Of a stretch of 64,000 bases of DNA, positions 29,952 to 64,000 are shown piece after piece. The stretch lies in assembly GCF_000739875.1 (NCBI RefSeq), contig NZ_BBJR01000025.1:62001-126000 (forward strand), read 5' to 3'. The translations under genes were made by a program, and so were the position numbers. The notes under the pieces are model-generated. The model did not search any database. It was not told where the DNA came from and saw only the letters and a program-made list of their open reading frames with translations. The DNA comes from Comamonas aquatica NBRC 14918 (GTDB lineage: Bacteria > Pseudomonadota > Gammaproteobacteria > Burkholderiales > Burkholderiaceae_C). The first letter of the stretch is position 1. Each line of letters starts with the position of its first letter.

Positions 29952-30077
29952 GGCTGAATTTCAGGGCATGTTCCGGCGCTCCTGGCCCCGCTGCGGTACG
30001 GCCCATGGGCGGGTCTGCGACCAGGGAAACCGCGGTTTCATGGGACAATCGCGCCCGCTGCATCGCACGGTGTGGCG

Positions 30078-30160
30078 CTCGCTGGGGGTGCCCTGCCGCA
30101 AGGCCGGGCTGAGAGAGTCCCTTTGAACCTGATTGAGATCATCCTCGCGCAGGGAAGCTG
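30078..30160 (+). promoter_or_regulatory. TPP riboswitch (THI element) upstream of cytX
   Basis: The conserved THI-box elements are present in order: GGGGTGCC at about 30085, GGCTGAGAGAGTCCC across 30107-30121, AACCTGATTGAGATCATCC near 30126 with the CTGAT-type core, and CGCGCAGGGAAGC at the end. It lies 90 bases before the transporter start. Binding of thiamine pyrophosphate should repress expression of the downstream pyrimidine-precursor transporter. Confidence 0.95.
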
Positions 30161-30248
30161 TTCATGCTGGTTGCTCGTCCGCAGGCTGTTGGCCCTTGCG
30201 GGCCGCGAGCCTGTCACGGCCCCTGCTTCGTAGGCTTACGGAGCATGT

Positions 30249-60684: not shown

Positions 60685-61311
60685 ATGGCCTCCTTAGACC
60701 CTCATTCTGAGTCGCCTGTCTCCACCTCACCCAACTCGCCCATGCGCCCCCTGCCCAGTCTGATTTTTGCCAGCCGCTGGCTGCAATTGCCCCTGTACCT
60801 TGGACTGATCGCAGCCCAAGGCGTGTATGTCTGGCACTTCCTGGTGGAGTTGTGGCACCTGATTGAGGCCGCCTTTGGCAGCCAGACGGCGCTGCAGGCC
60901 CTGATCCACAACATCGGCTACAAGCCCGAGGCCCCCATGACGGGCCTGAACGAAACCATCATCATGCTGGTGGTCCTGGCCCTGATTGATGTGGTCATGA
61001 TCTCCAACCTGCTGATCATGGTGATCGTCGGCGGCTACGAAACCTTTGTGAGCCGGCTGGGCCTGGACAGCCACCCGGACCAGCCGGAATGGCTGGACCA
61101 CGTGAATGCCTCCGTGCTGAAGGTCAAACTGGCCCTGTCCATCATCGGTATCAGCTCCATCCACCTGCTCAAGACCTTCATCAACGCCGGCAACTACGAT
61201 GTCAAGGTGCTGATGTGGCAGACCATCATCCATGCGGTGTTCCTGCTCAGCGCTTTGGCGATTGCCTACACCGACAAGCTGATCCACAGCAACCACCACC
61301 CCAGCCACTGA
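60685..61311 (+). CDS. YqhA/UPF0114-family membrane protein
   Basis: A 208-residue integral membrane protein of the TIGR00645/UPF0114 group, whose function is unknown. Four hydrophobic segments are seen. The family pattern [20 protein letters not shown] lies near residue 27, and [20 protein letters not shown] near residue 103 is followed by [26 protein letters not shown] lies near residue 150. The ATG at 60685 is in the position expected for the family. A histidine-rich end (HSNHHPSH) is notable. It is followed by an intrinsic terminator. Confidence 0.88.
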
Positions 61312-61334
61312 GGCATTTCCGCCTCGATCCCGCC

Positions 61335-61363
61335 AAGCCCGGAGCCTCCACTCCGGGCTTTTT
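61335..61363 (+). terminator. intrinsic terminator after yqhA-like gene
   Basis: AAGCCCGGAG and CTCCGGGCTT form a 10-bp stem with a six-base loop, followed by T residues, 24 bases after the stop. Confidence 0.9.
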
Positions 61364-61455
61364 GCTTTTATCGGCTTTTGACACCGGCTCGCAGCCGCTT
61401 GCCACCAATTGCCAGCGGATATCGCCAAGGCTTTCGCCAAGGCATGTGGAAACTC

Positions 61456-61484
61456 TTGACATCCATATGCCGAATAGTTAGAAT
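61456..61484 (+). promoter_or_regulatory. near-consensus sigma70 promoter for proVW
   Basis: TTGACA (61456-61461) and TAGAAT (61479-61484) are separated by exactly 17 bases. This is the best sigma70-type promoter I saw in the window. It places the transcript start near 61491, about 365 bases before proV. Confidence 0.8.
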
Positions 61485-61490
61485 AAGCAG

Positions 61491-61855
61491 CTTATTAACA
61501 ACCTGCCATGCAGGTAATCCGAATCTTGATGGCTCGGATTAACCCGGCAGTTGCCTGTTTCCGCAACGGTGCAACTGCCACAGCGCCGAACTTTCGGCCC
61601 TGATGCACGGACATGTTTGGATCATGTGGCGCGCCTGTCGGTGCGCGGCCTCTGCCCTCTCTTGCGGCCCTTGCGCACCTTTCAGCGTGCCATTCGGGCC
61701 CAGTCTAAAACCCTTCATGACGGCCAGGTTGCTGCAACCCGGCCCGTGCATCGGTCGGCATGACTTTCGGCTTCGCGTGTAGGCCGTCCAAGCCTCGCTT
61801 GTGACGCGGCTGCACTGTGTGTAACCCCCAAGAACAAATCAAGGGAGGACAACCA
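61491..61855 (+). promoter_or_regulatory. long structured 5' leader of proV, candidate RNA regulator
   Basis: The first 90 bases can form competing helices. ACCTG/CAGGT (61501-61515) excludes the larger stem in which CTGCC (61503-61507) pairs with GGCAG (61546-61550), and that stem also contains the 8-bp TAATCCGA/TCGGATTA hairpin (61515-61541). GGCAG can instead join the perfect 9-bp stem GGCAGTTGC/GCAACTGCC (61546-61554 with 61571-61579). Further hairpins are ACATG/CATGT near 61611 and GGCC.GGTT/AACC.GGCC at 61722-61744. No convincing small open frame with a ribosome site is seen. It resembles no riboswitch class I recognise. Confidence 0.55.
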
Positions 61856-63190
61856 GTGGCCAAACAAATTCGCATCGAAAACGTCTTCAAGGTCTTTGGC
61901 GATCAGCCAAAACAGGCCTTGGACCTGGTGCGCCAAGGGCTTTCCAAGCAACAAATCCTCGAACGTACCGGTCAATCGATCGGCGTGTTCGACGCCGACT
62001 TCACCATCGAAGCCGGGGAGATCTTCGTCGTCATGGGCCTGTCCGGCTCCGGCAAGTCGACCCTGGTGCGCATGCTCAACCGTTTGATTGAGCCCACCAG
62101 CGGCCGCATCGTGGTGGACGGACAGGACATCAATGGGCTGAACGACAAGGACCTGCGCGCGCTGCGCCGCAAGGACATCTCTATGGTGTTCCAGTCCTTC
62201 GCCCTGATGCCGCACATGAGCGTGCTGGACAACACGGCCTTCGGCCTGGAGATGGCCGGCGTCGACAAGGGCACGCGCCAGAAGGCCGCCCAGGAAGCCC
62301 TGGAGCAGGTCGGCCTGGGCGCCTGGGGCACCAGCTACCCGGACGAGCTGTCCGGCGGCATGCAACAGCGCGTGGGCCTGGCCCGCGCCCTGGCCTCCGA
62401 CCCCAGCATCCTGCTGATGGACGAGGCGTTCTCCGCCCTGGACCCCATCATCCGCACCGAGATGCAGTCCGAGCTGCTGCGCCTGCAGGAATCCAAGCGC
62501 CGCACCATCGTCTTCATCTCGCACGATCTGGACGAGGCGATGCGCATCGGTGACCGCATTGCCATCATGAAGGACGGCCAAGTCATCCAGGTCGGCACGC
62601 CCGACGAGATCCTGCGCAGCCCGGCCAACGACTACGTGCGCAGCTTCATCAAGGGCGTGGATGCCGCCGCCGTGTTCAAGGCGTCGGACATTGCGCGCCA
62701 AGCGTTGACCATCGTGTCCGAACACAACGATCGCGGGTGCCGCGCGGCGTTGCGCCTGATTGAGGACTCGGACCGCGACCACGCCTACGTGCTCAACGCG
62801 CGCCGGCGCCTGCTGGGGGTGGTCTCCGCCCAGTCGCTGCGCGACGCCCTGCATGGCCGCGAGGGCATGCTGGGCCTGCAGCACGCCTTCATCGACAACG
62901 TGGTGCCGATCGATGCCGCCACGCCGGTGGCGGACCTGTTCGGCCCCATGGCCTCCGCGCCCTGCCCGCTGCCGGTGCTGGGCGAGGACCGCAAATTCCT
63001 GGGCGTCATCAGCCGCACCACCATGATGCGCTTCCTGGACCGCGACACCCCGCCGGTGCCACCGCCACAACCGGTGCAGCCGCCCGTCACGCTCAACCCC
63101 ATGTTCCCCACGGGAGAGGCGGACACCCCCGCGATGCTGCACGAGCATTCGGACGCGCCCGCCACCGACAAGGAGAACAAGCATGAGTGA
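61856..63190 (+). CDS. proV: glycine betaine/proline ABC transporter ATP-binding protein
   Basis: A 444-residue ATPase of the ProV/OpuA family, energising osmoprotectant uptake. Walker A MGLSGSGKSTLVRMLNRL is near residue 58, the signature DELSGGMQQRVGLARALA near residue 165, Walker B ILLMDEAFSALDPIIR, and H-loop FISHDLDEAMR. A pair of CBS domains, which sense ionic strength in homologues, follows at about residues 280-400 (HAYVLNARRRLLGVVS and GEDRKFLGVISRTTMMRF). A proline-rich tail ends the protein. The GTG start is fixed by GGAGG at 61845. It overlaps proW by eight bases. Confidence 0.95.
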   Translation: MAKQIRIENVFKVFGDQPKQALDLVRQGLSKQQILERTGQSIGVFDADFTIEAGEIFVVMGLSGSGKSTLVRMLNRLIEPTSGRIVVDGQDINGLNDKDLRALRRKDISMVFQSFALMPHMSVLDNTAFGLEMAGVDKGTRQKAAQEALEQVGLGAWGTSYPDELSGGMQQRVGLARALASDPSILLMDEAFSALDPIIRTEMQSELLRLQESKRRTIVFISHDLDEAMRIGDRIAIMKDGQVIQVGTPDEILRSPANDYVRSFIKGVDAAAVFKASDIARQALTIVSEHNDRGCRAALRLIEDSDRDHAYVLNARRRLLGVVSAQSLRDALHGREGMLGLQHAFIDNVVPIDAATPVADLFGPMASAPCPLPVLGEDRKFLGVISRTTMMRFLDRDTPPVPPPQPVQPPVTLNPMFPTGEADTPAMLHEHSDAPATDKENKHE

Positions 63191-64000
63191 AGTGAACCCA
63201 AACACCGCCGCCACCCAGGACCCCTGGAGCACCAGCGCCGCACCCGCCGCCGATCCCTGGTCGGCCGCCAGCACCCCGGCCGCCGCCACCGATCCCTGGG
63301 GCGCCGCAGCCGCTGCGCCCGATGCTGCTGTGCCCGCCACCGACTGGCTGACCAGCCCGGCCAGCGCCACGCCTGATGCACCGCTGTCCCTGTGGGATCA
63401 ACTGCAGACCGATGGGCTGCCGATCGAGGCCTGGATCAACCAGGGCCTGGGCTGGGTGGTGGACAACTTCCGCCCCTTCTTCCAGGCCGTGCGCGCCCCG
63501 ATCGATGCCACCCTGTCGGGGGTGGAACAACTGATGCTGGCCCTGCCCTGGCCGCTGCTGACCCTGTTCGTGGCCCTGGTGGCCTGGCAGTTTGCCGGGC
63601 GCGGCCTGGCGATCGGCACCGCGCTGTCGCTGATTGCGATTGCAGCCCTGGGCATCTGGCCCGAGGCCATGGTCACCCTGTCGCTGGTGCTGACCTCGCT
63701 GGCCTTCTGCATCGTGATTGGCCTGCCGCTGGGCGTGCTGATTGCCGCCAGCGACCGCGCCCAGCGCTGGACGCGCCCGGTGCTGGACGCCATGCAGACC
63801 ACACCCGCCTTCGTCTACCTGGTGCCGGTGGTGATGCTGTTTGGCATCGGCAACGTGCCCGGGGTCATCGTGACCATCATCTTCGCGCTGCCGCCGCTGG
63901 TGCGCCTGACCAACCTGGGCATCCGCCAGGTCCGCCCCGACCTGATCGAGGCCAGTCGCGCCTACGGTGCCTCGCCCTGGCAGTTGCTGTGGAAGGTGCA
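63183..64000 (+). CDS. proW: glycine betaine/proline ABC transporter permease (partial)
   Basis: A permease of the ProW family, cut by the window end after 272 codons. It starts at an ATG inside the proV end, giving coupled translation. Residues 1-70 are an unusual hydrophilic, Ala/Pro-rich stretch with three spaced DPW motifs (QDPWSTS, ADPWSAA, TDPWGAA). The amphipathic block IEAWINQGLGWVVDNFRPFF follows near residue 82, then hydrophobic segments and the BPD-transport region, with PVLDAMQTTPAFVYLVPVVM near residue 200 and PPLVRLTNLGIRQV near residue 238. proX is expected beyond the window. Confidence 0.93.
   Translation, partial: MSEVNPNTAATQDPWSTSAAPAADPWSAASTPAAATDPWGAAAAAPDAAVPATDWLTSPASATPDAPLSLWDQLQTDGLPIEAWINQGLGWVVDNFRPFFQAVRAPIDATLSGVEQLMLALPWPLLTLFVALVAWQFAGRGLAIGTALSLIAIAALGIWPEAMVTLSLVLTSLAFCIVIGLPLGVLIAASDRAQRWTRPVLDAMQTTPAFVYLVPVVMLFGIGNVPGVIVTIIFALPPLVRLTNLGIRQVRPDLIEASRAYGASPWQLLWKV

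Follow-up and report, generated by a model that had tools for sequence, protein, structure and literature searches.

A Conserved Structured Leader RNA Upstream of proV in Comamonadaceae as a Candidate Regulator of Translation

The proU operon imports osmoprotectants, and its first gene, proV, encodes the ATPase of an ABC transporter. In Comamonas aquatica NBRC 14918, proV lies near the end of a 64,000-nucleotide stretch of contig NZ_BBJR01000025.1 (positions 62,001 to 126,000; hereafter the window) and is preceded by several hundred bases without an evident coding function. An earlier note on this DNA proposed that these bases form a switch-like RNA. The locus raises the question of whether this leader is a conserved structured RNA and what it may do for proV. 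Judged by sequence comparison, it is such an RNA, and it is most likely a leader that controls translation. To our knowledge, the sensing of osmotic stress for betaine import is largely open outside the enteric model.

Promoter, transcript, and reading frames of the proV locus

The proV transcript has a sigma-70-type promoter close to consensus (Table 1), as the earlier note had proposed; one promoter of that quality was found in the 1 kb scanned, versus 0.3 expected. The transcript likely starts near 61491, about 7 nt past the -10 box, which agrees with the earlier count of some 365 untranslated bases ahead of the proV GTG at 61856. Among the 54 leaders scanned, 32 have a recognisable promoter (score of at least 9/12), and 31 of these keep a distance of 13-16 nt between the end of the -10 box and the hairpin P1 (16 nt in the window). 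P1 is thereby placed close behind the transcript start. A UPF0114 gene and, after it, a terminator-like site (61335-61360) both lie upstream of the promoter. The list of open reading frames (ORFs) also holds a longer proV reading from GTG 61817; the Shine-Dalgarno (SD) sequence and the aligned start favor GTG 61856. The proW gene is named from its position behind proV, and a further plus-strand ORF downstream (L150) occupies the expected place of proX and is assigned by position.

Table 1. Features of the proV locus in the window (coordinates in window numbering).
Feature	Position	Strand	Basis or remark
Sigma-70-type promoter of the proV transcript, TTGACA-17-TAGAAT	61456-61484	+	11/12 consensus
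P1, hairpin ACCTGC-CAT-GCAGGT near the transcript 5′ end	61501-61515	+	6/6 pairs invariant in 28/28 sequences
P2, hairpin AATCCGA/TCGGATT	61516-61540	+	6 bp counted: 88.7% paired, 5/6 with two-sided changes
P3, hairpin with 9-bp outer stem	61546-61579	+	folds; letters divergent among relatives
P4, hairpin 61585-61589/61594-61598 with 3-bp extension P4a 61581-61583/61600-61602	61581-61602	+	folds
P5, 5′ strand CTGATGCACGG of long-range helix	61600-61610	+	probability 0.78 in whole leader
P7, hairpin with invariant asymmetric internal loop (CTTGC / CATNC)	61666-61700	+	covariation
P5, 3′ strand CCGTGCATCGG	61744-61754	+	motif anchor in 45/56 leaders, 96.1% of cells paired
P9, hairpin with outer helix GTGTAG 61777-61782 / CTGCAC 61810-61815, candidate anti-sequestor	61777-61815	+	comparison, folds
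P10, hairpin enclosing SD and start codon	61808-61861	+	61808-61810/61859-61861, 61813-61817/61854-61858, 61819-61820/61852-61853
SD helix of P10	61825-61829/61843-61848	+	compensatory change
SD sequence of proV, AGGGAGG	61842-61848	+	sequence
proV, ABC transporter ATPase with CBS domain	61856-63190	+	PF00005 E 7.4e-35, PF00571 E 3.1e-07
proW, extending beyond the window end	63183-64000	+	PF00528 E 9.3e-19

The window's 365-base leader contains no SD-preceded ORF of at least six codons. Such ORFs are absent from five of the six leaders scanned, and the single one in the sixth has no counterpart in the others, so a protein-coding reason for the leader was rejected. No intrinsic-terminator-like site was found between the promoter and proV in the window. 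A leader-peptide attenuator would call for both a common SD-preceded ORF and a terminator-like site, and neither was found (in the six leaders and in the window's leader, respectively); the variable lengths of P2 and P3 among leaders were also counted against it.

No Rfam 15 family matches the leader, in keeping with the earlier note, which had recognized no known class and asked for this search. Five matches were found in the window, none of them in the leader, and the leaders of 19 relatives gave no match, nor did those of eight relatives at E<=2. At E<=5, the region 61200-62000 gives one match of 16.2 bits against a gathering score of 55, at the terminator-like site upstream of the promoter (61335-61360). 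Among the titles listed from the open-licence literature, none concerns a leader RNA of proV in Comamonadaceae, and the passages of PMC2864571 that were consulted contain nothing on betaine, proU, or Comamonadaceae.

Other RNAs occur elsewhere in the window. A TPP riboswitch lies at 30074-30172 on the plus strand (RF00059, 58.1 bits, gathering score 54.3), and two pairs of tRNA genes lie on the minus strand (43213-43285/43348-43420 and 40722-40794/40853-40925). The two members of each pair have identical scores and stand about 60 bases apart, and both pairs are possibly tandem duplicates.

Conserved helices and distribution of the leader

The leader folds more stably than its shuffled controls. 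Positions 61491-61600 reach -46 kcal/mol versus -27.0 +/- 3.1 in 200 dinucleotide shuffles (z -6.1), and 61491-61900 gives a z of -4.2 against the same kind of control. Whole-leader consensus folds were computed for two separately aligned groups, seven Comamonas-type leaders (group A, z -12.0) and seven Delftia/testosteroni-type leaders (group B, z -12.3). In each group, none of 60 column-shuffled alignments was as low, where the column shuffle does not keep dinucleotides. Blocks of 130 columns range from z -12.3 to -1.4, and two inner blocks are weak alone (-1.7 in group A and -1.4 in group B). In Domain I, 95.0% of cells are paired, versus 88.3% in shuffles and 17-37% when partners are slid by one to three columns, and 35 cells change on both sides versus 9.6 in shuffles. 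Counting the pairs that change on both sides is less informative there, since 44 of 500 shuffles reach the observed number. The alignment of proV leaders, which the earlier note had set as its own test, gives a conserved fold with compensatory changes in P2, P4, and P7.

The 5′ end carries four hairpins, P1 to P4, which coexist in the predicted ensemble of 61491-61600 with probabilities of 0.93, 0.97, 1.00, and 0.97, respectively. The invariance of P1 leaves no covariation there; compensated variants are seen by eye in the more distant leaders L104, L106, and L124, and 9 of 16 leaders show P1 in the minimum-energy fold of their first 120 nt, again read by eye. The sequence of P2 varies freely with compensation. 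P3 appears in most segments with unrelated letters, as read from folds. P4 is paired in 96.2% of cells and has one pair with two-sided changes; its probability is only 0.18 in the window's whole-leader fold. The extension P4a (CAG/CTG) overlaps P5, both using the same CTG. For the window, P4a is predicted at 0.99 in an RNA that stops at 61613 and at 0.06 in RNAs long enough to form P5.

The earlier note had located its switch among these proximal bases, where GGCAG was to choose between two copies of CTGCC. The sequences that it named do occur (CTGCC at 61503-61507 and 61575-61579, GGCAG at 61546-61550, and ACCTG/CAGGT), as does its perfect 9-bp stem, 61546-61554/61571-61579. The choice itself finds no support, as the pairing 61503-61507/61546-61550 has a probability of 0.00 in all four RNA lengths folded, and its five pairs are complete in 9 of 28 leaders, versus all six pairs of P1 in 28 of 28, the window included. 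On the ensembles and the 28 aligned leaders, this alternation is rejected as a conserved switch. The broader idea of competing proximal helices holds in part: P1 to P4 form together and the competitor of P1 is not the partner once named, but P1 does have one. Bases 61506-61512 can pair with 61604-61610 in the 5′ strand of P5, with a probability of 0.85-0.88 for an RNA ending at 61613. Because of this pairing, P1 falls from 0.93 at end 61600 to 0.08 at 61613; it stands at 0.39 at 61760 and 0.94 in 61491-61900. In RNAs long enough to include the 3′ strand of P5, the competing pairing drops to 0.00. Nine of the 56 leaders contain the sequences required for it, each belonging to the Comamonas type; this early competition may reflect an order of folding. 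What survives of the earlier reading, on the strength of conservation, covariation, and the link to proV, is thus a leader that is long, structured, and probably regulatory and belongs to no known class; what falls is the GGCAG/CTGCC logic.

P5 is an 11-bp helix in the window that spans 155 nt. Its 5′ strand, CCTGATG, directly follows P4, and its partner CATC[AG]GG follows after about 140 nt in the window and after a longer distance in many other leaders. The pairing of P5 in Table 1 compares with a mean of 93.8% and a maximum of 95.3% in 1000 shuffles; the motif anchor itself favors pairing, so the evidence for P5 is modest. That count leaves out L112 (a 58-nt match), L068 (cut by a contig end), and the 11 of 56 leaders without the anchor. 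For an RNA ending at 61760, P5 has a probability of 0.92 in the window. P7 lies within the domain that P5 closes, and its pattern occurs in 50 of 81 upstream regions, 45 of them distinct, of which L060 was dropped as a match inside proV. In the remaining 44 sequences, P7 is 98.1% paired, with 34 two-sided cells versus 8.2 in shuffles. Its single-sequence probability does not exceed 0.05 in three leaders, those of the window (0.05), L059, and L126; it is predicted in seven of the ten leaders with a value, L064, L070, L098, and L101 not being among them.

The distribution of the leader was followed with R1, a model of its first 115 nt built from 28 leaders. The proV loci compared are the best 80 of 418 plus the window, giving 81 sources, of which R1 matches 58 at E <= 0.01, always on the plus strand and in the proV leader. 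New matches number 30 among the 53 sources outside the 28 used for building; an off-target minus-strand match in L075 (E 0.033) was ignored. Because every one of these sources was selected for its proV, the association with that gene is judged from whole-genome scans. In 37 whole genomes, R1 matches 22 of 23 from the same genus and none of 14 from other families. A single match is found in 21 of the 22 genomes; the remaining genome, which is fragmented, has two matches, each on its own contig. R1 also matches 12 of 150 genomes of the family, and it gives five strong and six weak matches in an evenly drawn sample of 399 genomes of the order. The 13 strong matches obtained from the family and order scans all lie directly ahead of proV of Comamonadaceae. 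The six weak matches lie outside the family (E 0.0015-0.086) and are taken as chance, as five of their genomes have no proV at E<=1e-90 and the sixth has proV on another contig. A match in G169 (E 0.001) was set aside, having no proV in its locus. For other families, 19 regions upstream of proV (44-59% identical) were searched with R1 and gave no match at E <= 5; in several of them proV stands directly behind another gene, without a leader.

A second model, R2, represents the Variovorax type and matches six more of the 150 family genomes, all just upstream of proV by coordinates. R1 and R2 together cover 17 of the 23 genomes in the family sample whose proV is at least 68% identical, and six have neither match. 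When searched in 55 of the 81 sources, R2 gives only weak matches in other leaders; seven of the nine between E 0.005 and 1 overlap the leader, and the Variovorax and other leader types are therefore treated as probably related. Within the genomes sampled, the comparison shows the leader to be restricted to one family, Comamonadaceae.

Two side observations concern these relatives. The entry titled Pantoea sp. 18069 (L096, NZ_CACSJA010000026.1) carries a Comamonadaceae-type proV (79% identical) and the leader, and its title or assembly may be wrong. The proV leaders of Variovorax and Polaromonas have a nearly invariant core, CTACTCGCGGATC...ATCCCGTCGCGG, in place of P2/P3 (L107, L113, L117, L119, L120, L125, L127, L128, L131, L132, L133, L135, L137, L138, L108, and L102), which might be a binding site.

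The candidate translation platform and its possible functions

The 3′ end of the leader contains two hairpins, P9 and P10, which share 61810 and 61813-61815, and full formation of one precludes that of the other. For Comamonas-type leaders, the strands of P10 are GGC-TG-CACTG-T-GT...CCCCC with GGGAGG...AC-CAGTG-GCC and hold the SD sequence and the GTG start. Across ten Comamonas-type sequences (aligned without G004), P10 is 98.0% paired, versus 24-52% when slid. Its SD helix has a joint C-G to U-A change in four of the ten, and its outermost pair changes from G-C to C-G in two; the outer helix is nearly invariant, and the two-sided pairs of P10 are reached by 249 of 500 shuffles. By this comparison, the SD sequence and start codon are shown to be base-paired in P10. 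The outer helix of P9 is 98.3% paired and nearly invariant in ten Comamonas-type sequences, and its inner part is 68.2% paired where the alignment is poor. The covariation score of P9, 0.144, is hardly above that of one slid control (0.126).

The predicted balance between the two hairpins depends on how much of the leader is folded. In the isolated 3′ domain of the window, forcing P9 gives -40.5 kcal/mol and forcing P10 gives -40.9, with ensemble probabilities of 0.43 and 0.42. The same domain in seven relatives gives P9 probabilities of 0.93, 0.99, 0.83, 0.66, 0.40, 0.96, and 0.00; near balance is confined to the window and L067, and L093 has neither hairpin. In the whole-leader fold of the window, P9 stands at 0.91 and P10 at 0.12, and P9 is dominant in all seven Comamonas-type whole-leader ensembles (0.82-0.99, with P10 at 0.00-0.21). 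P9 is thus the predicted main state of the whole leader.

A hairpin over the SD sequence and start codon is found in three leader types, and the overlap of P9 and P10 in two of these three. The Variovorax type realizes the overlap in other letters, with one GGGGC-containing strand that pairs either upstream (P9) or with GCCCC just past the SD sequence (P10). Its P9 is 87.5% paired (slid 41-64%) and its P10 82.1% (slid 29-55%); shuffles are only moderately exceeded, nine of ten measures being reached by 13-43 of 500 and the tenth by 179. Among ten Variovorax leaders folded, P10 has a probability of 1.00 in three, 0.15 in one, and at most 0.04 in five, and the tenth is without the motif. In leaders of Delftia and C. 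testosteroni, P9 and P10 lie side by side and are compatible. P10 consists there of ACTGTG/CACAGT with the start codon, has a folding probability of 0.21-0.99 in eight sequences, and an overlapping alternative is 3.5-12.2 kcal/mol worse in the seven of eight where it can be placed. Acidovorax-type leaders show an SD/start hairpin in some short folds only.

By eye, a separate element is seen in nine leaders of other types (L071, L104, L109, L111, L118, L121, L123, L124, and L134) and not in the window's leader. This hairpin, P6, has a variable stem and a conserved loop, TCCTC...AGACCT, that is partly complementary to the SD sequence and is possibly a second way of hiding it.

We give about even credence to the reading of the leader as a large, structured regulatory RNA that acts in cis, is particular to the proU operon of Comamonadaceae, and controls proV translation through a P10 that hides the SD sequence and start codon and overlaps P9. 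In this architecture, P1 to P4 would occupy the extreme 5′ end, P5 would close the domain containing P7, and the 3′ end would form the translation platform. Pairing of the SD sequence and start codon in P10 should block initiation, and P9, the predicted resting state, would take some of the bases of P10 and thereby free the start codon. Either a signal that the upstream domain reads or the sequence in which helices fold as the RNA is transcribed could shift the RNA to P10 and lower translation of proVWX, or act in reverse. We infer that in the cell P9 and P10 alternate, that this alternation controls translation of proV, and that sensing in the proposed switch falls to the upstream domain. The gene context points to osmotic state as the signal, although context can mislead.

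A strict metabolite or ion riboswitch, in which P1 to P7 bind a solute (betaine, proline betaine, proline, c-di-AMP, or an ion) and steer P9/P10, is a serious possibility that we rate below even chances. The leader has the conserved structure with covariation and, in the P10 of ten Comamonas-type leaders, the platform able to hide the SD sequence or start codon that such an RNA requires. Its size, its invariant elements (P1 and the internal loop of P7), and its single gene context are likewise those of a riboswitch. Many riboswitch classes are spread more widely than this leader, which is found in one family and before one operon. Two published candidates precede betaine-type transporter genes, as described in part of PMC8632094 (proX motif) and of PMC11109978 (opuB motif), but the ligand reported for the latter is linked to shikimate and aromatic amino acids, which illustrates how gene context can mislead on the signal (PMC11109978).

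The leader may instead be a scaffold for a protein or small RNA (an RNA chaperone, a CsrA-type protein, or RNase III) that governs proV translation or mRNA stability, with the hairpins as binding or cleavage sites. We consider this unlikely: separate hairpins with invariant sequence, such as P1 in 28 of 28 leaders and the P7 loop, do resemble recognition modules, but the long reach of P5 and the platform formed by P10 point to a global fold. Osmotic control of the E. coli betT mRNA by RNase III offers a published precedent, according to the accessible portion of PMC4067347.

Still less probable is a direct physical osmosensor, in which ionic strength or K+ would act on P9 and P10 with no ligand involved. 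The gap of 0.4 kcal/mol between the two hairpins in the window's isolated 3′ domain would suit such a device, as would the role of proU in importing osmoprotectants. P9 is, however, clearly ahead in seven of seven whole-leader folds, and a simple two-state sensor would not need P1 to P7 to be so conserved. Least probable of all is a non-regulatory role, as an mRNA-stabilizing structure whose P1 could protect the 5′ end just past the start or as a separate small RNA from the same promoter, since conservation and pairing run into the SD sequence and start codon and there is no terminator-like site before proV, for which reason the small RNA is not favored.

Returning to the cis-regulatory leader, its most specific form is held tentatively. 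The leader would represent a new class of about 310-545 nt, so far seen in Comamonadaceae only and before one operon, that senses osmotic state (through a compatible solute, c-di-AMP, or an ion) and gates the proV start through P9/P10, with the P1/P5 competition setting the folding order. It occurs once per genome in most genomes scanned and combines a fold that is conserved with a candidate on/off platform, and its natural variants are numerous. Such a bounded RNA would allow ligand screens and paired mutations to test RNA-based osmosensing directly.

Comparison with known systems

The E. coli proU operon is of the same type and is also under osmotic control at the RNA level. RNase III acts there inside the proV coding region, whereas the RNA described here precedes the gene.

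Three published motifs resemble the proV leader by description. The smtA motif, or "Soda Lake RNA", is likewise a large structured RNA (>350 nt) upstream of a gene, which in that case encodes a methyltransferase (available text of PMC11109978). The opuB motif (SRC-50-1) is an Enterobacteriaceae riboswitch with five base-paired substructures and 205 representatives, whose ligand is reported to be connected with shikimate and the aromatic amino acids (PMC11109978, in the part accessible). It shares with the proV leader its place in the leader of an osmolyte-type ABC importer, and its own P1 stem uses the SD sequence, but it belongs to other taxa and another gene (PMC11109978). The proX motif (SRC-29-1) is a candidate riboswitch of Spiribacter that precedes a glycine/proline betaine transporter gene; an RBS-occluding stem has been proposed for it, and its signal is given as unknown in the accessible portion of PMC8632094. 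Like the proV leader, it is a structured leader before a betaine transporter gene with a platform over the translation start. It differs in having 17 representatives, mainly from Spiribacter and saltwater DNA, and in standing before proX rather than proV (PMC8632094). Compared by description and not by sequence, the proX motif is the nearest published relative in kind of the Comamonadaceae proV leader.
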